From the NCBI GenBank assembly GCA_951812755.1, contig OX638329.1, forward strand, positions 4,224,522-4,288,521: a stretch of DNA of 64,000 nt, given 5' to 3'. The notes under the pieces are model-generated. The model was not told the origin of the DNA. It did no database searches and was given only the letters and a program-made list of their open reading frames with translations. Numbering within the stretch: the first letter of the stretch is position 1; each line of letters starts with the position of its first letter. The DNA is from an uncultured Latescibacterota bacterium. GTDB lineage: Bacteria > Latescibacterota > UBA2968. Position numbers and translations under genes: made by a program. Shown in pieces: positions 51,435 to 63,978 of this stretch.

Positions 51435-51773
51435 TCACCCGGCGGATTTGTAGAGGGTGCGTCCAAGTTTGAAAATTTCCTCGAGAAATGGATCAAAGTT
51501 TTGCAGATGGGTTTGAATTTCTTCAGGTGTACGCACGACAATATCCATCGCAACATATTTGGGACGACAAATGCGAGCAATTGCGGTACTTCGCGCTGTT
51601 GGACGCAAATCTGTATCCATAATGACGAGCAAATCTAAATCGCTATCGGTCTTTGGCTCGCCATAAGCATAAGAGCCGAAGAGGATAATCTGATCTGGAT
51701 GAAAGTGTTCGACAATTTTGTTTGCGATCTCATCCAAAAGCGACTCTGTAATTTTTTGTTCTTTCGCACTCAT
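51435..51773 (-). CDS. MNT-type nucleotidyltransferase antitoxin, copy B
   Basis: 112 aa, 'QIILFGSYAYGEPKTDSDLDLLVIM' with the GSx(10)DxD motif. It is nearly identical to copy A at 45568. As in copy A its HEPN partner is truncated to an N-terminal stub, so it is a solo antitoxin unless it serves the intact HEPN at 52103. Confidence 0.85.
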   Translation of the reverse strand: MSAKEQKITESLLDEIANKIVEHFHPDQIILFGSYAYGEPKTDSDLDLLVIMDTDLRPTARSTAIARICRPKYVAMDIVVRTPEEIQTHLQNFDPFLEEIFKLGRTLYKSAG

Positions 51774-51834
51774 CTGAGTATTTCCTAAAATGCGCTGTCG
51801 AACCGGGCGAATCGCCCATCCGCTTTTTGTATAT

Positions 51835-51912
51835 AATGATAAATGCCTATTTGCAATTTACTTGAAAAACAGGGACTTGCAATGGCGTTTTTGAATATAA
51901 CGATAATTATAC
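51835..51912 (+). repeat. Dispersed repeat, copy 4
   Basis: It contains ATTTGCAATTTACTTG, AAAAACAGGGAC and TTGCAATGGC, then degrades. It is one A shorter than copy 2. Confidence 0.7.
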
Positions 51913-51973
51913 TTAAAAATTAAGACCCGACAGACGACCACTCTTGAGTGGGCTTTTACTCGCCTCGAATACA

Positions 51974-52011
51974 ACACAAGCCCGCAGGTCTGCACCTACA
52001 GGCTCTTGTGT
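51974..52011 (+). other. Compound hairpin in the gap before the HEPN gene
   Basis: ACACAAG (51974-51980) pairs with CTTGTGT (52005-52011), with a second inner stem AGGT/ACCT. A T-rich stretch follows. It may end + strand transcription coming from the cassette. Nothing else recognisable lies between 51912 and 52103. Confidence 0.35.
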
Positions 52012-52102
52012 TTGATTGTTTGTAACAGCCGTTTCAATCATCGTTGTTTTGTCACAGCAATAGGGAAATCCTCTTCGGCGAGACGCTTGCATGCTTTGGG
52101 GA

Positions 52103-52495
52103 TCATATCTGCTCCTCAGCCCAGTGGACGACGGCTTCGGCTATCTCAATCGCTTTCGCGTACTCCTGTTCAGAAACCGGTTCGACCCTGGCAGGATAGC
52201 GTATAACCGTGGCATAATCGGTGAGATCCTCGGCTTGACGGACCAAATGGGGAATCGTCTCGCCAGTCTCTTCAAGTAGCAATAGAAGGCGGCTCAGGTC
52301 ATGTATATAGGGAAATTCAATGCCGCGCTGGATTAACAATGCCTTGATGGCCTTCTCGGCGGCCTGTTGAGCCTCAAAGCACAGTTCTTCCAGATAGACA
52401 TGGTGGATGCGACTCCTCGCCAGGGCAAGATTGCTACGGGCGCGATTCAACCACTCCCGCGGATCGTCTGGTGGAAAGCGTTCAGGCGGCCTCAT
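52103..52495 (-). CDS. HEPN-domain toxin of an MNT/HEPN pair
   Basis: 130 aa, all-helical. 'PPDDPREWLNRARSNLALARSR', 'LEELCFEAQQAAEKAIKALLIQRGIEFPYIHDLSRLLLLL' and 'YATVIRYPA' are the usual HEPN (COG2250-type) pattern, with the Arg and the His of 'RGIEFPYIHDL' in the position of the active-site R-x(4-7)-H motif. Such toxins act as RNases. The start overlaps the MNT gene by 14 bp, so the two are coupled. Confidence 0.85.
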   Translation of the reverse strand: MRPPERFPPDDPREWLNRARSNLALARSRIHHVYLEELCFEAQQAAEKAIKALLIQRGIEFPYIHDLSRLLLLLEETGETIPHLVRQAEDLTDYATVIRYPARVEPVSEQEYAKAIEIAEAVVHWAEEQI

Positions 52496-52832
52496 AAATC
52501 ACTCTTCCCTCCTGTAGCGCGGGCTTGATGATCAGCGCATGGCTGTCCTTGTAACGTTCTACATCCTCGGGCGTGACCACGATCACATCTACAGCCATCC
52601 TTATGCCATACAGCTTCCGGCGTATCTGCCTCGCCAGACTCCGCCGATGTACGCACGCCTTAACGATGAGCAAATCGACATCGCTATGGCGGTTCATGTC
52701 GCCTCGGGCGGCAGAGCCAAAAAGGATGATCTTTTCAGGATCAGCTACTTCCACAATACGACTGATGATGTCGGCCAGGATTGTTTGGTCCATCATCGTG
52801 CTGTCCTTTTTTATCTCCATTTGATCAGACAT
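52482..52832 (-). CDS. MNT-type nucleotidyltransferase antitoxin of an intact pair
   Basis: 116 aa. 'KIILFGSAARGDMNRHSDVDLLIV' gives GSx(10)DxD, and 'GIRMAVDVIVVTPEDVERY' the third strand. It is only distantly related to the solo copies A and B. It overlaps its HEPN partner, and the pair is the only complete one of the three in the window. Confidence 0.88.
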   Translation of the reverse strand: MSDQMEIKKDSTMMDQTILADIISRIVEVADPEKIILFGSAARGDMNRHSDVDLLIVKACVHRRSLARQIRRKLYGIRMAVDVIVVTPEDVERYKDSHALIIKPALQEGRVIYEAA

Positions 52833-53103: not shown

Positions 53104-53922
53104 CTATTCTAAAATCCGATCCACATCAACCTCAAATCCCGCGCTCTTCAACTCTCTCATAAGAGTCATCTTCCATCCGCCAGATTCGTCAAGGGGAATA
53201 TATAGTACGCCATCATAATCAGAGGGTATCTCGACATTCTCCCCTTTCAATGCACAAACCCGACCGCGGTCCAACTTACCCGTGAAATATCCCAACTCAA
53301 ATATGACATTTTGCCGTGCACGTGGTTTGAGAGACTGTTCTTCTCCTGATAGGCCACCAGTATCGTCCGGGGTCAGGAGAGCAATGGCGAATGCAACCTC
53401 AGCATGTCGCTCAAATTTCTCAATAATCGTTTGCCCTTGATTGGGTTGTTCGTGAAGGATAATAGGATTTAGCCTGAGTTGCTCGATAAATCGAGCGACG
53501 GCTTCTTTGGTGCCTTCGTCGCGTCCATGAATTATGAAAACATCCCGCATGTGCTCTGAACTTGTTTGGTTTTGTGATGTTGAAATTTCTGTGAATGATT
53601 CATCCTCCCAATACTCTTCAATCTCCTCAATCATTGATTGCAAAATAGCTGTAGATCGCTCTAGCCCCTCAATATAGGCCTGTTGCCAGTCTGAATCTGT
53701 AGTGCTTGAGGATAACGCGAATAGTGAGTAGGAGATCCCATCGAAATCCTCCATCTGACTGGAATCCTTTTCAAATGTGTGGGCAATGGCAATTTTAGTA
53801 TTGCGGCGCCATTTTATAAACTCAGGTGAACTGCTATGGTGTTTGGACTGTTTAAGATCCTCTATTGCGTCAAGTGCTCTTTGAAGGCGTTGTATCGCTG
53901 TATCTTTTGGTGGTCTTGTCAT
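53104..53922 (-). CDS. TIR-like nucleotide-binding protein (CAP12/PycTIR-type)
   Basis: 272 aa from ATG 53922; the longer reading to 54009 overlaps the next gene. The N-terminal half is helical (about 1-130). The C-terminal half is the predicted TIR-like domain: 'DVFIIHGRDEGTKEAVARFIEQL', 'PIILHEQPNQGQTIIEKFERHAEVAFAIALLTPDD', 'RARQNVIFELGYFTGKLDRGRVCAL' and 'EIPSDYDGVLYIPLD'. This pattern belongs to TIR-like proteins of which some act as NAD-degrading effectors in cyclic-nucleotide antiphage systems (CBASS, Pycsar). No cyclase is in the window, so it may act alone or with the DUF6884-like gene upstream. Confidence 0.85.
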   Translation of the reverse strand: MTRPPKDTAIQRLQRALDAIEDLKQSKHHSSSPEFIKWRRNTKIAIAHTFEKDSSQMEDFDGISYSLFALSSSTTDSDWQQAYIEGLERSTAILQSMIEEIEEYWEDESFTEISTSQNQTSSEHMRDVFIIHGRDEGTKEAVARFIEQLRLNPIILHEQPNQGQTIIEKFERHAEVAFAIALLTPDDTGGLSGEEQSLKPRARQNVIFELGYFTGKLDRGRVCALKGENVEIPSDYDGVLYIPLDESGGWKMTLMRELKSAGFEVDVDRILE

Positions 53923-53998: not shown

Positions 53999-54463
53999 TC
54001 ACTGATCACTCTCCTCTTCTTCTAAGCAAGCTTTCAACCAAGCAAGCTGCTCGCCCTGTCTTAAGCCTTCCATCGGAGTGCTCACCGCGATGCCACGCCT
54101 GTGTAGCACCGACTCTAAGAACTCACGATATTTTTTGCTGGCAAGGAATACCACGGATTTGACGTCAGTCAGGTGCGGATCGAGTGCCTCTATCACACCA
54201 CGCGCCCACGCACGCCGATCATCTACTCCCATGTTATTCAGCGTTTTTTCATACGGCTCGATTTGCTCGTTTGGATCGACAAGGCCATATTTTGCCGACA
54301 GTATGTACCATGATCGTCCAGTCCTTTCAACACAGGTGCGTGCCTTGACAAACCAATCAGAGGTATATAGGTCTCTCGCTAGTGCAGGACAGCATTGTTT
54401 GGTCTTGACGCAATAGACAAGGTAGAGGTCTGCATCTGGCAATTTACAGCATAACGTACGCAT
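53999..54463 (-). CDS. DUF6884-like protein
   Basis: 154 aa from ATG 54463, because TTAGGAGA lies 6 bases before it; the ATG at 54469 is too close. 'DLYLVYCVKTKQCCPALARDLYTSDWFVKARTCVE' and 'SWYILSAKYGLVDPNEQIEPYEKTL' are the typical core ('v.C...K......pA.dLY.s..F.k.r.y.e......yILSAkyGLv.p...i.pYd.tl'). Such proteins are common in defence islands; function is not established. It is 76 bp before the TIR-like gene. Confidence 0.75.
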   Translation of the reverse strand: MRTLCCKLPDADLYLVYCVKTKQCCPALARDLYTSDWFVKARTCVERTGRSWYILSAKYGLVDPNEQIEPYEKTLNNMGVDDRRAWARGVIEALDPHLTDVKSVVFLASKKYREFLESVLHRRGIAVSTPMEGLRQGEQLAWLKACLEEEESDQ

Positions 54464-54499
54464 ACTCATTCTCCTAAGGTAGAGTGTTAAAGCAGCTTC

Positions 54500-55320: not shown

Positions 55321-58300
55321 TCAATCGAAACGTCTCTTCCTGACCTCTGCGTCGGAATCCCACATCTCGGCGTCGCGCTCGCAAGATGCGGCGACGGCCT
55401 CGAGGACCCTCCCAACAAAGGGATAGTCGAAAAGCAAGTGCTCGGACCAAGCTCGGTATTCCGCAGCGCGTTCGTGTTCTTGTTTGCCTCCTTCGTCCAG
55501 TTCGACAACGCCGCGAGAGTTGCGAGTGCCGAAATAGAATCCCTCGCCGATTTTCGTAGATGCCATCCCTTCCATCGCCTCGCAGACCGCTTCGCAAGGC
55601 CAGATACCATTCTTGCCAGCAGGTGCCTTGGCAAGCAGTTCACCGATGCAGTGATCCCCAATATTGACGCGGGCGTAATTGCGGCACAGTTGCCGAACCT
55701 CAGAGATCCAAGCGGCGAGTACGTGTCCGTCAATCTCTCCGTCATCATTTGTGCCAGGAATCTTCGTTATCTCCCTGAGAAGGTGACGCGCCGCCCATGC
55801 GGCTGCCTCCCGTTGTTTGGGGTCCTCGATCTTCCATTCCAGCGGGTCTTCTCCGTCGTCACTTCTTTTGTAGATGAGCGCCACCACATAGGCAAAAAAC
55901 GCTGGTGATTCTGTGATCTGATTTTCGAGATTCGGGATTCCATGCTGGCTGTACTCAAGGGGTTTGATGAACATAAATTCGAATTTCGCCATTTCATCAC
56001 GGGTGACGCCCGGACGGTTATTAAGCGAATCCAGTGCCTCGGAAATATTGTATCTTTCGGGCAGGTAATGGCTTTCTGGTTCAGCATTAACTGTGGCAAC
56101 TTCGCGCAAAAGCTGCTTGAGACGGGACGTCTCGATATCCTTGAGATTCATGTGAACAGCATGGAACGCCGCACGCGGTCGCCGGACCTCCAGAAGACAA
56201 TCAATCAGTTCGGTAAGTTCTGCGGGCGTGTACCGGATCACTGATGGGGAGACATTCCTCCAGTACTCGGCTCGGGTATCCTCGTCATAGTCGTCCAGAA
56301 GACGCCAGGTGGATGCCTGAAACGGCGCGCATACAAATAGCCGCACACGCTCTTCGGCGGACAACTCCTTGGCCGCAGCCTGCAATACCCCAGCACGCGA
56401 GTCTTCCTCGATCGAGACAAGAAAACCCTTCAAGCACTGCTCAGCCTTACCCTGGAAGTCTCCGTCAAGTGAAAGGCAACACTTGATAAAATCGATCTGG
56501 GGCTTCACACCGGTAACGCACGACGACATGTAATGGCCGACGATTTCGGCGGCACCACTGTCGGCAAGCAATTTCTTAACACCCCGAAAACCGCACTCGG
56601 TCCATATCTCGATCATCGCATCACGGCGCAGCCTGTGGATCCGTTCTGCGTGCTTCTGATGGTCGAAATCTTCTTCGATCTCGTCAGCCGATTCCTGCAC
56701 CCACCCACTGGCGAATAGCCAGCCGTGATGTATGACTGGATCCTGGGGACAGAGGCTATCATAAACTTCGCGAGCACGGTCGCGGGTCGATTCTCCAAGC
56801 TTCTGGCCGCCCTGCCGAGGAGAAAAGGCAAAGCATCGGATGCGCTCGCGCAGCATGGCCTTAGCAGATTCAGTGGCATTCTGGGACCATTCCTGAATCA
56901 GGTCCCAAACCTTGGTCTGGTCTTTTTCCGCCATACAGGAGAGAGACTCTATGAGACTGCCAAGAGTTTTTTCGTCGTGGGACGGCCAAGCAATCAGCAA
57001 GTCCAGAGCCTTTCGGTTGAAGTCGCATATTTCCTTGTACGTGACGACTTGGCCAGCCCCTGAGGCGTCACTACGCCAACGGGGTCTGTAGCTAGGGATG
57101 CCTATTTGGGAACCCGGCTGGAACTGCGCGATGCAGATCGCCCAACCAATATTTGGGAAACGCTTGATTAGCATTTCGAGCACCTTAACTCTATCCCCCA
57201 CCGAAGCTGCCGTCTGCGGCATCCATGATCTGAAGATGTCCTGAAGGCTGTCGCCCGGTTTATTCATCCAGTTGTCGTTTATTTTTTGCTGAGAGAGTTG
57301 GGAGAGGATTAACGATACGCACGAGAGGTTTCGCGGTTTCCAAGCAAGGCACTCCAACGCCCAGAGAAGGCCCGTTCGTGATGGCGATGCCCATAACGAG
57401 CCGCTGGGAACCGGCTTGAGAAGGCCAAAGACAATGGGGTCTTTGTCTTTGCTCTGTAAATCTTCTTCGATGAGGTCCAGAAACACACCGGGCGCGGCTT
57501 CTGCGAAGCGCGGCAGATCATGGTCGTGGGAGAGTAATTTTTCAAGCGTCAGCGGCGTTAGGAGTCCTCGGATCAGACCTTCGACCTGGCCTTCGACATT
57601 GATACCGAGGCGACTCTGGAATAGGTCGTTGCCATGAACCGAGAGGATGACGAGGGTATCGCAGATACTCTCGCGCAACGCGCTGGAGTGGTTGCGTTTC
57701 TTGCCGTACAGGGGCGCGGCCCACCGTTTCTCTTCTGGGAGTTCAAGTGCCGGATCGGACTCGGACAGGACGTATTCAGCTGCGGTGAAGAACCGGTCGA
57801 GATCCGCTGATATGACCCTCTCAGCTATTGCAAACAAAGCATCAATCTTGGAGGTAACACCTTGGAAACGCCCGGCAGACCACACCGGGCTGTCATCGAA
57901 CCCAAGTAGGCGCGCGACGCCGTCTTCTATCTCCTCGTATTTTCGATCCGCCACGTAGGAGACTATCTCGCGATCCGCTTCCGATTCTGCGTGCCATGTG
58001 CCAATCAGAGCCATCGGTACGAGGTCTTTTGCCGTTTTATCATCGCGCGCCCATGCCGGCATTCTGATTGCGGCATTCTTCGAGAGGCGCCGGCGCAAGA
58101 TCGTTGGTGATCGTCCCGATTCCCTCGCAAGACGTTCAATTTTATCTTTTTTGAGTCCCATGGCGGTGAGTGCCTTCTTGAAGGCGTCATAGCCAAGCAG
58201 GTCAAGCACAATGTCGGTTTCCCTATCGGCCGCGTTGCGTGTACGGAACACGATGCAATGAAGTCGCCGATGGGCGTCACCGAGTTCGCGCTCGGTATCA

Positions 58301-59154
58301 TGGGAATGGACTATCGGGATAAAATTCTCGGAGGACGCAACGAGCATCTTGAGCGGCTCTGGAGAAGTGAAGACCGCGGCTCGATCCTCGAATTGGCGGA
58401 GATCCTTGTTATCGAACAAGCAGGCGAGAAAGGCGAGCGCCTCGTCCCGCGAGTCAGCCGCGACATAAAAAGGCTTCTCACTCGGCTTGTCGAGCCAATC
58501 TTTGAACTTGTCCCGGTACGCAACGATCGAGGATGCGAAGATCTCAGGCGTTAGATGAGGCTCGCTGACGTTCGCCCAGCGGTCCCATACCCGTTCCAGC
58601 GTTTCATAGCCGCTGGTTGGTTGGCCGAGTTGTCCGGCAAGCCAGATCTGCGCCAGCACCGCCTGTTCCAGCCACTGCTCGAGATCGCTTGCATCTAAAG
58701 CTCTGACTTCCTTCCAGTCGCCGGTTTCTTTCTTCTGGTTCTCCCATGTGGTCTTACCGGGCCAATTGCGAGGTGTCACAAAGACGAAGGTGATATTTGC
58801 CCGCTCAGCGGGATCAACTAACTCCAGCCGATTGGAATAATCCTTCTCCGCCTTGCCACGTGGGTTTTTGTCGGTGCCGAACTCCCAATAGGAGGTCCCC
58901 TCGGGAATCCAAGGATTAGAAGCTCCCGATTTGACAACACCGTCGGGGCCATGGCGCTGCGCGTTGTCGTAGCCAGGAAAGTCAACTTGATGGAGGTCAC
59001 GGCCTGTTGAATGAACGAGCTTTCGTAGTAAGACAGGAAGGTAGGTGCGGGCATCGATCTGGTCGGCCCAGTTCTCGATCTGTCTTGCCTTAATAGTCAA
59101 AAAACTCGGGATAAAATCGTCGTGATGGTGATGGGTATCAGAGAGGGTGGTCAT
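55321..59154 (-). CDS. 1277-aa protein of unknown family; possible N-terminal nuclease
   Basis: The N-terminal ~200 residues include 'HQVDFPGYDNAQRHGPDGVV' and 'EGTSYWEFGTDKNPRGKAEK' then 'DYSNRLE'. The PDG...WEFG layout resembles a restriction-endonuclease-like (PD-(D/E)XK) core, with Gly where ExK would have Lys. 'LKKDKIERLARESGRSPTILRRRLSK' (about 345-370) is a helix-turn-helix-like segment, and the remaining ~900 residues are helical, HEAT/ARM-like. I find no P-loop. GAGGAAG precedes the ATG. It is the last gene of the sigma factor/helical/ImmA-IrrE run, 80 bp behind, and its length fits large antiphage effectors. No signal peptide or membrane segment is seen. Confidence 0.7.
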   Translation of the reverse strand: MTTLSDTHHHHDDFIPSFLTIKARQIENWADQIDARTYLPVLLRKLVHSTGRDLHQVDFPGYDNAQRHGPDGVVKSGASNPWIPEGTSYWEFGTDKNPRGKAEKDYSNRLELVDPAERANITFVFVTPRNWPGKTTWENQKKETGDWKEVRALDASDLEQWLEQAVLAQIWLAGQLGQPTSGYETLERVWDRWANVSEPHLTPEIFASSIVAYRDKFKDWLDKPSEKPFYVAADSRDEALAFLACLFDNKDLRQFEDRAAVFTSPEPLKMLVASSENFIPIVHSHDTERELGDAHRRLHCIVFRTRNAADRETDIVLDLLGYDAFKKALTAMGLKKDKIERLARESGRSPTILRRRLSKNAAIRMPAWARDDKTAKDLVPMALIGTWHAESEADREIVSYVADRKYEEIEDGVARLLGFDDSPVWSAGRFQGVTSKIDALFAIAERVISADLDRFFTAAEYVLSESDPALELPEEKRWAAPLYGKKRNHSSALRESICDTLVILSVHGNDLFQSRLGINVEGQVEGLIRGLLTPLTLEKLLSHDHDLPRFAEAAPGVFLDLIEEDLQSKDKDPIVFGLLKPVPSGSLWASPSRTGLLWALECLAWKPRNLSCVSLILSQLSQQKINDNWMNKPGDSLQDIFRSWMPQTAASVGDRVKVLEMLIKRFPNIGWAICIAQFQPGSQIGIPSYRPRWRSDASGAGQVVTYKEICDFNRKALDLLIAWPSHDEKTLGSLIESLSCMAEKDQTKVWDLIQEWSQNATESAKAMLRERIRCFAFSPRQGGQKLGESTRDRAREVYDSLCPQDPVIHHGWLFASGWVQESADEIEEDFDHQKHAERIHRLRRDAMIEIWTECGFRGVKKLLADSGAAEIVGHYMSSCVTGVKPQIDFIKCCLSLDGDFQGKAEQCLKGFLVSIEEDSRAGVLQAAAKELSAEERVRLFVCAPFQASTWRLLDDYDEDTRAEYWRNVSPSVIRYTPAELTELIDCLLEVRRPRAAFHAVHMNLKDIETSRLKQLLREVATVNAEPESHYLPERYNISEALDSLNNRPGVTRDEMAKFEFMFIKPLEYSQHGIPNLENQITESPAFFAYVVALIYKRSDDGEDPLEWKIEDPKQREAAAWAARHLLREITKIPGTNDDGEIDGHVLAAWISEVRQLCRNYARVNIGDHCIGELLAKAPAGKNGIWPCEAVCEAMEGMASTKIGEGFYFGTRNSRGVVELDEGGKQEHERAAEYRAWSEHLLFDYPFVGRVLEAVAASCERDAEMWDSDAEVRKRRFD

Positions 59155-59234: not shown

Positions 59235-60071
59235 CTACCAAGCGGCTGACACTGCTCGATTGGTGAGAAACCGATTCAGCGGAGAAGCAGGTTGGATTGA
59301 AATGAGGCTGATGACGGTTTGATATCTCTTCAGATACACAGCATCTTCTTGAATAGTGAAGCTTTGGGAAAACTCCTGATCCTCAACCCACATCTCTACA
59401 GGCACTTGCTGCGGACCGCCAGGAGAAAGATCGCCTGCAAAGAGTTGTCCTGCAAGAGAATCTGGATCTACCATTGTTCCCATATCTAGCAGTCGCAACG
59501 GAAATGTCTCGCAGGTTTTGAACCAAGTCATTTTACCATCACGGCTCACTATCGCCGCACAATCATGCCGAGTGAAATCAAGATATCGGAGAGTTGTGGC
59601 AGTTAAACTCGTCTCAAACTCTGTACTCAATTTCTCAATTGTTGCTACAGTCGGACTCTCGCTGCTGCATCTTGACTCAAACAGAAAATTAGGCATTAGG
59701 AGTTCAACTGCAAAAGTATTCGCCTCTTGCTCTTCTGGAGACAGTTCTTTGTACCAAAATAAAAGTTCTTTTTGATGGTACAAAGAAAGCTGATTCTTTT
59801 CTTGATGCAGCATGAAGTGCCCAAATTCATGTGCAATAGCAAAACGGCGTTGTCCTACCTCCCGAACCCTATCAGAGACACGTATCAAAGCTTTATCTTT
59901 TCCATTGCGAATCAGACGAGCAAGCGCTCCTTTCAACGGTGCTTCAATCACCAAAATACCTTTGTCAAAGCAGATGGCATTGAGATCAATCTGATCCGGA
60001 TCATCAATTCCGTAATCCCTGAGAATTTTATGTGCAGACCGAATAGGTCGACGTGATGTCTGATGGTTCAT
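59235..60071 (-). CDS. ImmA/IrrE-family metallopeptidase
   Basis: 278 aa from ATG 60071. 'FAIAHEFGHFML' is the zinc HExxH motif (His81, Glu82, His85), and 'EEQEANTFAVELLMP' gives the third ligand (Glu116). GGAGGT lies 11 bases before the ATG. The start overlaps the stop of the helical-protein gene (ATGA, 4 bp). Proteases of this family cleave a helix-turn-helix repressor to switch on mobile-element or stress genes. Here the likely target is a regulator of the sigma factor or the neighbouring helical protein (inference). The C-terminal ~120 residues are a beta-rich extension. Confidence 0.9.
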   Translation of the reverse strand: MNHQTSRRPIRSAHKILRDYGIDDPDQIDLNAICFDKGILVIEAPLKGALARLIRNGKDKALIRVSDRVREVGQRRFAIAHEFGHFMLHQEKNQLSLYHQKELLFWYKELSPEEQEANTFAVELLMPNFLFESRCSSESPTVATIEKLSTEFETSLTATTLRYLDFTRHDCAAIVSRDGKMTWFKTCETFPLRLLDMGTMVDPDSLAGQLFAGDLSPGGPQQVPVEMWVEDQEFSQSFTIQEDAVYLKRYQTVISLISIQPASPLNRFLTNRAVSAAW

Positions 60072-60526
60072 GGTGCTTTTCCACCTCCCCCACTTTCGTT
60101 TTCCAAATTTTCCCACCATTGGAGCAATTCTGCGTCTTGTGCGAGGCTTTCCATATCTTCCTCTTCAATTGTATCCAATTTGCGATAGAGTACTTGCAAA
60201 GCAGGACCAGATACATTACGGCCAAATTCTTCTTTTAACCATGTGCCTATTTGGTGCTTTGGATCATTCATTGAAGAGAGAGATTCTTTTACCTGATTAA
60301 CAAAGCCCACAAGACGTTCTCTGCGTTGCTTTGCCTTAGCCAGACGTACGCGACCTTTCATTCTTTGGATAAATGCCTGTCCGCGTTGCCTGAGCTTATC
60401 CGGATCGTAACCACTACGACGCAATTCTTCATTCAAGGTCTCCTCATTTTCAGTGGCGGCCTCGTACAGTGCTTCGACCAGATTATCCATTATCTCTGCG
60501 GGGGAGAGTTGACGCCTATTATCCAT
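60068..60526 (-). CDS. Helical protein between sigma factor and protease; function unknown
   Basis: 152 aa. Strongly helical and charged: 'AEIMDNLVEALYEAATENEETLNEELRRSGYDPDKLRQRGQAFIQRMKGRVRLAKAKQRRERL' is followed by 'KESLSSMN' and an acidic tail 'IEEEDMESLAQDAELLQWWENLENES'. I know no domain for it. A protein this size next to a sigma factor and an ImmA/IrrE protease could be an anti-sigma factor or the protease's substrate. This is inference. AAGG precedes the ATG, and it sits 6 bp after the sigma-factor stop. Confidence 0.65.
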   Translation of the reverse strand: MDNRRQLSPAEIMDNLVEALYEAATENEETLNEELRRSGYDPDKLRQRGQAFIQRMKGRVRLAKAKQRRERLVGFVNQVKESLSSMNDPKHQIGTWLKEEFGRNVSGPALQVLYRKLDTIEEEDMESLAQDAELLQWWENLENESGGGGKAP

Positions 60527-60532
60527 ATTTAA

Positions 60533-61138
60533 TCAACCTTGTTTATTTAAGGCAGGAAGATCTTGTAGTTTCCGGCGAATGCGTTTTATAATCACATAGA
60601 TTTTTGTCACCGATTTGCCAAGTTCTTCTGCTATTTTTTTGGGCTTTGCGCCGTCTTGCAAATACAAAAAAACCATGCCCGCTTCCTCGTCATCTTCCAA
60701 CAGGCTTTCAATCTGGGCAATCCGCTCTTCGAAGGCAAGGCATTCTTCTGGCGAAGGATTGTTGCTCAAAGCATCGTGTCCCCAACCATCTATACCGGCA
60801 TCTTCTGAAAGAGCTTGGCGCGTTTGATTGTCCCGTCCCTCTGTTTGGTGGCTTACAAGGCTTTTAATAATTCCTTTAAGAACTGCCTCAAGATTGGGAT
60901 ATTTGGCTACATCCCAAGTTCTCTGGCCAATATAAAGTAATTTAATGGCTTCTTGAACAAGATCTTCAGCTTGTGTGCCTCCAGGCGGGTGTCCACCGGG
61001 CCAGGATATAGCTTTCAACCTGAACTGAGCATATACAACTAATTTGGGGAGAATTTGATCCCAATTAGCTTCTTCAAGTCGCCGCAAGACATCTGAACTG
61101 GGAGGTTCAGATGCACGTTTTTCGCCGTCGACAATCAA
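60533..61138 (-). CDS. Sigma-70-family RNA polymerase sigma factor (ECF-like)
   Basis: 201 aa. The start is TTG 61138: AAGGAGG lies 7 bases before it, so the unusual start codon is well supported. Region 2 is 'GGTQAEDLVQEAIKLLYIGQRTWDVAKYPNLEAVLKGIIKSLVSHQ', the DLVQE helix of the sigma-70 family. Region 4 is 'LYLQDGAKPKKIAEELGKSVTKIYVIIKRIRRKLQ', a helix-turn-helix. There is no region 1 or 3. Its promoter region is shared with the ubiquitin-like operon on the other strand, with three tandem repeats between them. It is the first gene of the four-gene minus-strand run. Confidence 0.88.
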   Translation of the reverse strand: MIVDGEKRASEPPSSDVLRRLEEANWDQILPKLVVYAQFRLKAISWPGGHPPGGTQAEDLVQEAIKLLYIGQRTWDVAKYPNLEAVLKGIIKSLVSHQTEGRDNQTRQALSEDAGIDGWGHDALSNNPSPEECLAFEERIAQIESLLEDDEEAGMVFLYLQDGAKPKKIAEELGKSVTKIYVIIKRIRRKLQDLPALNKQG

Positions 61139-61141
61139 AAC

Positions 61142-61460
61142 GGTTCCTCCTTATATCTATATGCCACTCACTCAGATTTTTGCCATCCTCGTGGCAAAAT
61201 TTCCGAACTAACGGGCACATAGACGATGAAGGGTTTAATCAAAATGGTTCCTCCTCATATCTCTATATGCCACTCATTACATATTTTTTGCCTTCCTCGT
61301 GGCAAAATTTCCGAACTAACGGGCATATATAGATGATGGAGGCTTTAATCATATCAGCTTCTCCTCATATCTCTATATGCCGCTCATTACATATTTTTTG
61401 CCATCCTCGTGGCAAAATTTCCGAACTAATGGGCATATATACGATGAAGGCTTTTAGATA
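61142..61460. repeat. Three tandem ~104-110 bp repeats between divergent operons
   Basis: Units begin at 61142, 61246 and 61356. Each starts GGTTCCTCCT (or AGCTTCTCCT) and contains CCATCCTCGTGGCAAAA with an inverted repeat, then TTTCCGAACTAA and TATA-rich GGGCATATATAG (unit 1: GGGCACATAG), ending GATGAAGGCTTT-like. The hairpin arms are at 61178-61185/61192-61199, 61286-61292/61301-61307 and 61396-61403/61410-61417. On the minus strand each unit begins with an AGGAGG-like site followed by a start codon and ATT, as for the sigma factor. The unit is therefore a multiplied promoter/leader/start region. Confidence 0.85.
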
Positions 61461-61485: not shown

Positions 61486-61674
61486 ATGGCTAAATCTCTG
61501 AAGCCAGGACAGAAAGCCCCAGCATCCGGCCAATACGAAATTGTTGGTCCCCGTGGTGGGGCTACGGGCAAAGAACGAACCGTTGTTAAAGGTGAACCGC
61601 TTCCGCCTACGCCCAAATCAAAACAAGGCTACGTAATCGCAGACCGAACAAAGAACAACAGTGGACGTGGCTAA
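61486..61674 (+). CDS. YjzC-like small protein, first gene of the ubiquitin-like operon
   Basis: 62 aa, 'MAKSLKPGQKAPASGQYEIVGPRG' (shown in part) then 'GEPLPPTPKSKQGYVIADRTKN' and ending '...NSGRG'. The pattern 'kPG..aP.SGqY...gprgg..g.E.tv.kGepLPPTp..gq.Y...d.Tk' is that of YjzC-like proteins. GGGAGGTGA lies 6 bases before the ATG. Family function is unknown. Its C-terminus ends in Gly-Arg-Gly. It lies 91 bp before the Ubl gene; a role as substrate, modifier or signalling partner is possible. Confidence 0.78.
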   Translation: MAKSLKPGQKAPASGQYEIVGPRGGATGKERTVVKGEPLPPTPKSKQGYVIADRTKNNSGRG

Positions 61675-61765: not shown

Positions 61766-62101
61766 ATGGCAGATGTAATCGATGTATCTGAGGCGATCCG
61801 GGAAGAAATTCTCGATGAAATCGCCGATCTCGAAGAATATGCAGCGCGCGGAGAACGCCCGCCGCAGTGTCGTGGTTATCGCATTCGCGTCAATCGCGAG
61901 CGGTTTGTAATGTATGAATCAAAACCGACGCGTGAAATGATTCTGGAAGCAGCGGGTCTATTCCCTGTCAAGGACTGGACATTGCGATTCGTAATACGGG
62001 GTTGCAAGCCCGAGTTGATCAAGCCGGGCGAACAGGTTGATCTTACACGCCCTGGGGTCGAAAAATTTAAGGCCCTACCGCGTGACCAGACGGAGGGTTG
62101 A
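61766..62101 (+). CDS. Ubiquitin-like protein (multiubiquitin family, single domain)
   Basis: 111 aa. ATG 61766 fits GGAGG at 61756-61760; ATGs at 61754 and 61763 are too near. Residues about 1-35 are a helical acidic leader ('SEAIREEILDEIADLEEYAARGERP'). The ubiquitin-like beta-grasp runs from about 38: 'YRIRVNRERFVMYESKPTREMILEAAG', 'WTLRFVIRGCKPELIKPGEQVDLTRPGVEKF'. The C-terminus is '...PRDQTEG', so a terminal Gly is already exposed for adenylation. Multiubiquitin proteins can carry several domains; this one has one. It is followed after 1 bp by the E2-like gene. Confidence 0.88.
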   Translation: MADVIDVSEAIREEILDEIADLEEYAARGERPPQCRGYRIRVNRERFVMYESKPTREMILEAAGLFPVKDWTLRFVIRGCKPELIKPGEQVDLTRPGVEKFKALPRDQTEG

Positions 62102-62102
62102 A

Positions 62103-62504
62103 ATGTTGCGGCATCATTTTGAACTTCTGGCAGAAGATCACCAATTTTTAGATGACTACGGTTGCCCATGGGAGACCATCTCTGATGGCTCCCAATGGGT
62201 GCTGCTGCATAATTTCAGCACCCAGGACTCCGGGTACAACCATCAACACGTCACCGTGGCAATCCGTCTGGAAACCGGCTATCCAAAGACGGCACTGGAC
62301 ATGGCGTATTTCTACCCGACGCTTGCACGCAAGGATGGAAAGCAGATTGGAGCTACCCAAGCAACGCAGCAGATCGATGGGAAGGCCTTTCAAAGGTGGT
62401 CTCGTCACCGCACGAGCACGAACCCCTGGATCATCGGTCAAGACAACCTCGGAACGCACATTCTCTTGGTTGAAGACTGGCTGCGTCGAGAATTTGAAAA
62501 GTGA
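62103..62504 (+). CDS. Prokaryotic E2-like protein (family E type)
   Basis: 133 aa from ATG 62103, with GGAGGG at 62092-62097; the longer frame from 62037 overlaps the Ubl gene. 'EDHQFLDDYGCPWETISDGSQWVLLHNF', 'HVTVAIRLETGYPKTALDMAYFYPTLARKDG' and 'QRWSRHRTSTNPWIIGQDNLGTHILLVEDWL' match the Prok-E2_E pattern (YP..aLDM, WSRH...W..G.D.L.T). The only Cys is residue 21, near the N-terminus and not in the expected E2 active-site position, so the transfer chemistry is unclear. It likely passes the Ubl from the E1 domain to a target. Confidence 0.82.
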   Translation: MLRHHFELLAEDHQFLDDYGCPWETISDGSQWVLLHNFSTQDSGYNHQHVTVAIRLETGYPKTALDMAYFYPTLARKDGKQIGATQATQQIDGKAFQRWSRHRTSTNPWIIGQDNLGTHILLVEDWLRREFEK

Positions 62505-62511
62505 GGCTGAT

Positions 62512-63978
62512 ATGGACGTGACACTTACTTTGACCCAAGACCAGCACAAAGAGCTTAAAACGCATCTCTTTCCAGGTGATGGATATGAGGCATCGGCGAT
62601 CATTCTTTGTGGGAGATGTGCCGGAGATCGGCGACATCGTCTGGTTGCGCGAGAAGTGCATCCAATCCCGTATAAACAATGCTCTGAGCGCACACCTTTA
62701 GGGGTGACTTGGCCGACTGATGTTATTGCCCCTCTACTTGATCGTGCTGAAGAACACGGGTGGACAGTGATAAAGAGTCATAGCCATCCTAACGGCAGAG
62801 CACGGTTCTCTGAAATCGATGATGAGGGTGATCGCAAACTAATACCCGCGGTTCGCGACTGGTTCGATGACGATTTCTTCCACGGTAGCGTCGTTATGCT
62901 TCCCAATGGAGAGATGTTTGGCCGCTGCCTTGATGGTAAGGGTGATTTTGTACCCCTGGCACATATCAACGTAGTTGGGGACGATCTCCTATTTTGGTAT
63001 GCCGATCCACACAGCGACAACATCCCGGATTTTGTGGCGTCGCACACTCAAGCATTTGGTGAAGGAACCTTTGAACGCATTCGCCGTCTGTCGATTGCAG
63101 TTGTTGGCTGTTCCGGGACCGGTAGTCCGGTGATTGAGCAACTTACTCGACTCGGTGTTGGGGAACTGGTGCTCGTTGATGGAGATATAATTGAAGATCG
63201 AAATATCAATCGCATCCTGAACGCGACAATGAATGACGTGCAAGCCGATCGGTACAAAGTCAGTGTTCTCACCGAGGCGATCAATCGCATCGACATCGGA
63301 ACCCGCGTTATTCCACTGGCTACGAATCTTTGGACACCGGAGGCAGTACGGGCCGTTGCACAGTGCGATCTCGTTTTTGGGTGTGTAGATACAATCGACG
63401 GGCGTTTTCTGCTCAATACGCTCGCTACCTACTACATACTTCCTTATATCGACCTTGGTGTCCGAATTCGGGCAGTCCCAGAGGGTGAGCACAAAGGGGA
63501 TATCCAGGCTATTTGCGGCAGTGTTCACTATCTGAAACCGAGTGGATCGAGCTTAATCAGCCGAGACATATTTACCCTTGAAGAAGTCGCGGCCGCAGGG
63601 TTAGCGCGAAACGACCCAGAAGCCCACGCACGACAGGTTAAAGATGGTTATATTGGCGGTGTAGCTGTGGCTCGGCCCGCTGTCATTAGTCTGAATATGT
63701 CTTTGGCTTCGCTTGGGGTGCATGAATTGCTCGCCAGATTACATCCATTCCGAGATAATCCTAACGGTGATTACGACCACATTCAGGTTGATCTTGCTGG
63801 TATGATGATGGATTTCGATTCGAAACCCGATCCTTGTTCAGTCTTCCGCAGTGATGTTGGTAAGGGAGATGTCCGCCCACTTCTCGGAATGTTGGAACTG
63901 TCGGAGAAAACACATGAGGATATCGATACTAAAACGGTTCAGGAACTGGCTACGCAACTTGTTACGTCCCCAGTTTAG
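62512..63978 (+). CDS. JAB (JAMM) protease fused to E1-like ThiF adenylyltransferase
   Basis: 488 aa. The N-terminal ~150 residues are a JAB metallopeptidase with Glu26, then 'IKSHSHPNGRARFSEIDD' holding His90, His92, Ser100 and Asp103, the JAMM motif. The C-terminal part is the E1/MoeB/ThiF domain: 'IAVVGCSGTGSPVIEQLTRLGVGELVLVDGDIIEDRNINR', with a nucleotide loop at 199-205, Asp223 and Arg230/Asn231, and 'DLVFGCVDTIDGRFLLN'. It would activate the Ubl by adenylation and could also remove it from targets. The two activities are in one chain, a fusion of opposite functions. GAGG precedes the ATG. The next gene starts 65 bp inside it. Confidence 0.92.
   Translation: MDVTLTLTQDQHKELKTHLFPGDGYEASAIILCGRCAGDRRHRLVAREVHPIPYKQCSERTPLGVTWPTDVIAPLLDRAEEHGWTVIKSHSHPNGRARFSEIDDEGDRKLIPAVRDWFDDDFFHGSVVMLPNGEMFGRCLDGKGDFVPLAHINVVGDDLLFWYADPHSDNIPDFVASHTQAFGEGTFERIRRLSIAVVGCSGTGSPVIEQLTRLGVGELVLVDGDIIEDRNINRILNATMNDVQADRYKVSVLTEAINRIDIGTRVIPLATNLWTPEAVRAVAQCDLVFGCVDTIDGRFLLNTLATYYILPYIDLGVRIRAVPEGEHKGDIQAICGSVHYLKPSGSSLISRDIFTLEEVAAAGLARNDPEAHARQVKDGYIGGVAVARPAVISLNMSLASLGVHELLARLHPFRDNPNGDYDHIQVDLAGMMMDFDSKPDPCSVFRSDVGKGDVRPLLGMLELSEKTHEDIDTKTVQELATQLVTSPV

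Follow-up and report, generated by a model that had tools for sequence, protein, structure and literature searches.

ECF sigma factors with autoregulated promoters are small proteins coupled to a downstream partner gene, and their promoters have a -35/-10 spacing of 17-18, usually with an AAC motif in the -35 element. In CBASS and Bub (bacterial ubiquitination-like) operons, an XRE repressor (CapH) is combined with an ssDNA-activated M78 protease (CapP), which cuts the repressor on accumulation of ssDNA (PMC10904395, PMC13373217). In type III CRISPR, CalpL cuts the anti-sigma factor CalpT and thus frees the sigma factor CalpS (PMC12751052).

The locus described here lies at the end of a 64,000-nucleotide stretch of DNA (the window, always meant at its full length). 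It combines a CapP-type peptidase gene with genes for a divergent ECF-like sigma factor and an all-helical protein, opposite a Bub operon (Table 1). The DNA between the two operons consists of three tandem units, U1 to U3. Each unit has two-fold symmetry and probably serves a defence-control sigma factor as a bidirectional promoter region, which is present here in triplicate.

The repeat array and its two operons

Tandem Repeats Finder reported one array at 61133-61454 (3.0 copies, period 110, score 479), which occupies the gap between the sigma/helical/CapP-type operon on the minus strand and the Bub operon on the plus strand. An earlier note on this DNA had proposed three tandem units at 61142-61460; the repeat finder and the alignment (pairwise identities among U1, U2 and U3 of 91.3, 87.5 and 91.6%) bear out the units and the array, with the edges displaced by 9 bases on the left and 6 on the right. 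No special sequence marks the unit boundaries, and the 352-base repeat region matched only itself when the whole 6.5-Mb genome was searched. Two further features described in the note recur in all three units: on the minus strand, an AGGAG site (Shine-Dalgarno) followed by a start codon and ATT, and a GCCA/TGGC hairpin with a TATATA block. The 24- and 29-codon frames opened by two of these start codons encode unrelated peptides, which rules out the duplicated starts as conserved leader peptides.

Table 1. Features of the locus (positions in the window)
Feature	Position	Strand	Remarks
U1, sigma side	61133-61236		104 bp; contains Shine-Dalgarno site and start codon of the sigma gene
U2, middle unit	61237-61346		110 bp
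U3, Ubl side	61347-61454		108 bp
U1 start copy	61138	-	TTG-ATT-GTC, the sigma gene start
U2 start copy	61242	-	TTG-ATT-AAA, opens 24-codon frame
U3 start copy	61352	-	ATG-ATT-AAA, opens 29-codon frame
U1 sigma-facing half	-10 61158-61165, -35 61178-61185		spacer 2 nt short
U1 Ubl-facing half	-35 61192-61199, -10 61214-61221		has GGCACATA
U2 sigma-facing half	-10 61264-61271, -35 61286-61293		-35 with one mismatch
U2 Ubl-facing half	-35 61300-61307, -10 61322-61329		exact
U3 sigma-facing half	-10 61374-61381, -35 61396-61403		exact
U3 Ubl-facing half	-35 61410-61417, -10 61432-61439		exact
CapP-type M78 (ImmA/IrrE) peptidase, HExxH	59235-60062	-	Peptidase_M78 1.9e-14; PADLOC capP 1.4e-53
All-helical protein, 152 aa	60068-60526	-	candidate for anti-sigma factor and for substrate of the peptidase
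Divergent ECF-like sigma factor, 201 aa	60533-61138	-	start TTG
YjzC-like protein, 62 aa, first Ubl-operon gene	61486-61674	+	PF14168 2.3e-5, at gathering score
Multiubiquitin-type ubiquitin-like protein	61766-62101	+	PF14452 2.1e-10
Prokaryotic E2 family E	62103-62504	+	PF14462 1.7e-39
JAB-ThiF (E1) fusion	62512-63978	+	PF00899 1.9e-28, PF14464 2.4e-7

The sigma factor matches TIGR02937 at 2.1e-9 with 37.2 bits, below the curated cut-off of 42.9, and 10 of 17 members of its family match the same model at E<=0.01. Similarity to ECF-like sigma-70 factors extends over regions 2 and 4; among solved chains, the family profile finds sigma-H factors (best 8e-8), and a fold search with the structure model listed mainly ECF factors, at E >0.04. 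The models of the sigma factor and the helical protein were built from two-row alignments and are poor. A plasmid-type query found no sigma relatives in phages, and a sigma match in L005 was set aside as an unrelated FecI-type locus.

The helical gene stands between the sigma and peptidase genes, as in the plasmid modules described below, and gene order and overlapping frames suggest that its product is a putative anti-sigma factor. Its model is all-helical at low confidence, its profile has no informative solved relative and its family no HTH match. Neither the sigma nor the helical gene matches XRE, i.e., no XRE-type CapH repressor is encoded upstream of the peptidase. The peptidase frame extends without a stop as far as an ATG at 60119. 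On the same strand, a 1277-aa protein without a Pfam match (55324-59154) is encoded some 80 nt beyond the peptidase gene and may be part of the sigma operon.

On the plus strand, PF14452, PF14462, PF00899 and PF14464 follow in the order of a Bub operon, and a DUF6527-like gene after JAB-ThiF crosses the window end (downstream frame in L007). Relatives of the E1/JAB protein were not found in viral contigs. Judged by its gene content, this end of the window resembles a defence island. A CAP12/Pycsar-type TIR effector (PF10137, 3e-39) is encoded at 53107-53919 and a DUF6884 protein at 54002-54469, both on the minus strand. Two nucleotidyltransferase-fold genes and a HEPN gene at 51438-52832 (minus strand) resemble MNT-HEPN toxin-antitoxin pairs. 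Near the other end of the window, a short array of TTGATTCG units lies at 2320-2374.

Dyad symmetry of the units

A single dyad, overlooked in the earlier note, unites the hairpin with the TATATGCC/GGCATATA blocks: TATATGCC-N14-TTTTGCCA-N6-TGGCAAAA-N14-GGCATATA. Read outwards on either strand, TGGCAAAA-N14-GGCATATA resembles a -35/-10 pair, with a TGGCAA-to-GCATAT distance of 17 nt in five halves and of 15 nt in the one of U1 that faces the sigma gene. Three of the six halves are perfect, two carry one mismatch and the remaining one, the sigma-facing half of U1, has the short spacer. Of 20,000 dinucleotide-shuffled versions of U3, none had two 8-bp arms on one dyad, and the full dyad pattern with up to three mismatches has two matches in the 64-kb window, against 0.00 expected. 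In a motif-agnostic symmetry test, U2 and U3 were each significant (p 0.005) and U1 alone was not (p 0.38). The spacer sequences of the two halves are unrelated by inspection, so the symmetry is more than an inverted duplication. The -10 of U1 ends 20 nt 5' of the sigma start and that of U3 ends 47 nt 5' of the first Ubl-operon gene, both within the range of the plasmid loci.

A search for the sigma-70 housekeeping promoter (TTGACA/TATAAT) returned one weak site, with no excess over shuffles. A sigma-54 -24/-12 promoter was rejected by inspection, as the required GC is missing.

An 8-bp hairpin in every unit, as well as the minus-strand upstream frames with their Shine-Dalgarno sites, might be expected if the repeats function as RNA, i.e., as leader hairpins, a riboswitch, an attenuator or a terminator. 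Such a function is very improbable: the repeats have no Rfam match at E<=1 and no intrinsic terminator was called within them, the upstream frames are unrelated to each other, and a hairpin leaves the outer arms and the fixed spacing unexplained.

With at most one mismatch, all five matches of TGGCAAAA-N14-GGCATATA in the 6.5-Mb genome fall within the array, and the sister genome G008 has a single match, 5' of its Bub operon. At two mismatches the excess is modest (14 matches in G000 and 8 in G008, against 5 and 4 for a reversed-pattern control). G008 shares the sigma start and the Shine-Dalgarno spacing with the window. One unit is seen there, with an intact Ubl-facing half and an IS end inside the sigma-facing half; because of the position of this IS end, an earlier higher copy number is conceivable and may have existed. 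Two different IS elements (L006 9571-10504 and 13293-13700) flank the broken sigma/Ubl-operon junction of G008, in which the sigma gene and the Ubl operon now have the same orientation. G015 and G004 have no sigma gene, and their Bub operons lack the element; in three other Bub operons of the same phylum, XRE-M78 pairs occupy the corresponding place. The Ubl operon of G004 is decayed (L042 8900-10826, L043): its YjzC-like gene has no start, and E1/JAB is split across contig ends, one of the pieces containing stops.

The mirror layout beside related modules

Plasmids were searched with the peptidase, and the combination sigma-helical-CapP was taken as the module. It is present on plasmids of Bacteroidota and of Alpha-, Beta- and Gammaproteobacteria, mostly divergent from the neighbouring operon, which is of the multiubiquitin/ThiF type (L069, L074, L078, L080, and L083), of the CBASS type (L073, L079, L081, and L090) or small (L071, L075, L077, L082, and L093). 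PADLOC capP was the best match for 9/9 plasmid peptidases tested. The divergent small operon of L071, L082, and L093 contains a DUF2188 gene and a hypothetical gene of ~93 aa. L085, L088, L091, and L095 encode a sigma relative and a small gene without the peptidase, and the mirror promoter is kept in L085 and L091.

The intergenic DNA of these modules contains the motif TGTCCG-N17/18-GCATAG on both strands, first noticed by eye in its N18 form. With at most two mismatches it occurs on both strands in 8/15 loci (0.007 expected from shuffles), a count that is not independent because the motif was derived from those loci. Among 11 validation loci fetched afterwards with sigma queries, nine carry it on one strand or both (0.57 expected), six of them on both (0.01 expected). 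The eight regions used as controls, which precede XRE-type CapH/CapP genes or sigma-less Ubl operons, all lack it. In ten whole plasmids, every exact spacer-18 match lies within the intergenic region of the module. The motif-agnostic symmetry test gave p 0.005 in seven plasmid loci and p 0.01-0.03 in four more; several others were not significant, and among five CapH control regions one was significant as well (p 0.02). A symmetric element seen by eye in Pontibacter failed this test (p 0.62). The -35 of the window (TGGCAAAA) is unlike the plasmid TGTCCG, and only the -10 core GCATA is common to both.

The two best-scoring halves have an equal spacer in 17 of 18 unambiguous loci, a test repeated without hand choice of tied halves. 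Over the -10 variant and the five preceding bases, halves of the same locus are alike at 8.3/11 positions vs 6.2/11 between loci (p 5e-5), in a comparison that includes near-duplicate loci (L092/L093, L085/L091) and a few tied halves chosen by hand. Examples of such pairs are GCCTAA/GCCTAA in L072 and GTATAG/GTATAG in L094. The -35 boxes of a locus lie 6 to 32 nt apart, or 178 nt in L074 and 152 nt in L078.

This geometry bears on whether the symmetric unit could instead be an operator array for a dimeric repressor that the peptidase removes, as in CapH/CapP. The repressor would be the helical protein or an unseen HTH protein, and the sigma-like protein would act elsewhere or as a plain DNA-binder. 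Indeed, TTTTGCCA-N6-TGGCAAAA is a good operator-like palindrome, and repressor cutting is known for CapP-type peptidases (PMC10904395, PMC13373217). An operator array is nevertheless unlikely, given that the inner-box gap is 6-32 nt or more across loci while the spacing within a half stays at 17-18 and is the same on both sides, that the helical family has no HTH match, and that XRE-type CapH loci lack the element. Equal spacers and common -10 variants across a variable gap thus favour two promoters over one operator; a fixed half with a free inter-half distance is what would be expected if the local sigma factor reads two promoters that are independent of each other.

Copy number, proposed switch and known systems

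Tandem duplication within this lineage gave rise to the three copies; conservation does not extend to the triplication. The earlier note had pointed to homologous operons as a place to look for the repeat; there the mirror layout recurs as a single unit. The exception is L073 (2279-2507, a Pseudoalteromonas CBASS locus), with an independent, diverged and decayed two-copy unit at an offset of ~100 nt. The note's proposal that the system's own sigma factor has several sites here, serving either direction, is well supported as a promoter-site reading, given the paired halves and their conservation on plasmids, and unsupported as regards multiplication as part of the system.

Among the three units, 2/32 columns of the promoter boxes are variable vs 22/76 of the remainder (p 0.0065). 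Conservation of the loop and of the Ubl-side spacer is about equal to that of the boxes, which places the constraint on the core and not on the boxes alone. U3, which adjoins the Ubl operon, is perfect, and U1, which adjoins the sigma gene, is flawed both ways. The extra copies may raise or tune the promoter dose or may be neutral; tuning is possible, and neutral duplication equally so. There is about an even chance that one ordinary bidirectional promoter slipped to three copies and left control unchanged, a scenario that concerns copy number only and is compatible with the promoter explanation. The single unit at homologous loci, the flaws of U1 and the plain unit boundaries agree with it, whereas the lower variability of the box columns, the nearly complete promoters retained both ways in U2 and U3 and the separate decayed version in L073 speak against it. 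As to the promoter explanation itself, several points count against it: the imperfect U1, the sub-threshold sigma match, the conservation of loop and Ubl-side spacer besides the boxes, a -35 unlike that of the plasmids and, in the motif-agnostic test, the significant CapH control and the plasmid loci short of significance.

Since the logics of CapP and CalpL appear combined in the module, we infer a switch in which the sigma factor is freed by peptidase cleavage of its helical partner. One promoter of each unit would face the sigma-helical-CapP operon, for positive autoregulation, and the other the Ubl-E2-E1/JAB operon. The helical protein would keep the sigma factor inactive until it is itself cut by the CapP-type peptidase, for which single-stranded DNA is the probable trigger; the released sigma factor would then fire the sigma-operon and defence-operon promoters together.

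Tentatively, and with somewhat less than even probability, the modules constitute a family of immune regulators: a dedicated sigma factor, an anti-sigma factor and a DNA-damage peptidase of the CapP type would together switch Bub and CBASS operons, among others, via a mirror-image promoter, amplified threefold here to change the response. Such a family was not found in the open-licence literature searched, and a description elsewhere is possible. The predicted promoter sequence that accompanies the sigma-factor switch of such defence operons is directly testable. If the switch is true, its targets could be recognised from sequence alone, and DNA-damage proteolysis would be tied to active transcription of defence genes rather than to derepression. 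The triplicated copy constitutes a natural experiment in promoter dose.

The bidirectional promoters studied in E. coli reportedly consist of overlapping elements common to both directions, read by the housekeeping polymerase. The locus resembles them in its pseudo-symmetric DNA with (here predicted) divergent transcription (PMC12825309), but its two complete halves stand back to back and apparently serve a dedicated sigma factor. With autoregulated ECF systems it shares the small sigma factor, the coupled downstream partner gene and the 17-18 spacing; unlike their promoters, its -35 is without the usual AAC motif, and its two predicted promoters, arranged back to back, form a conserved mirror pair. 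As in CalpL/CalpT/CalpS, infection would lead a protease to release a dedicated sigma factor from its partner; however, the CalpL protease is a Lon-SAVED protein that answers cA4, whereas that of the window is a CapP-type Peptidase_M78 and not of the Lon-SAVED type. In gene content the locus resembles CapH and CapP, with a CapP-type peptidase in a small regulator operon beside Bub or CBASS genes, often divergent. Here, a sigma factor and a helical protein replace the XRE repressor, and, unlike at XRE-type CapH loci, the intergenic DNA contains two mirror-image promoter-like halves.
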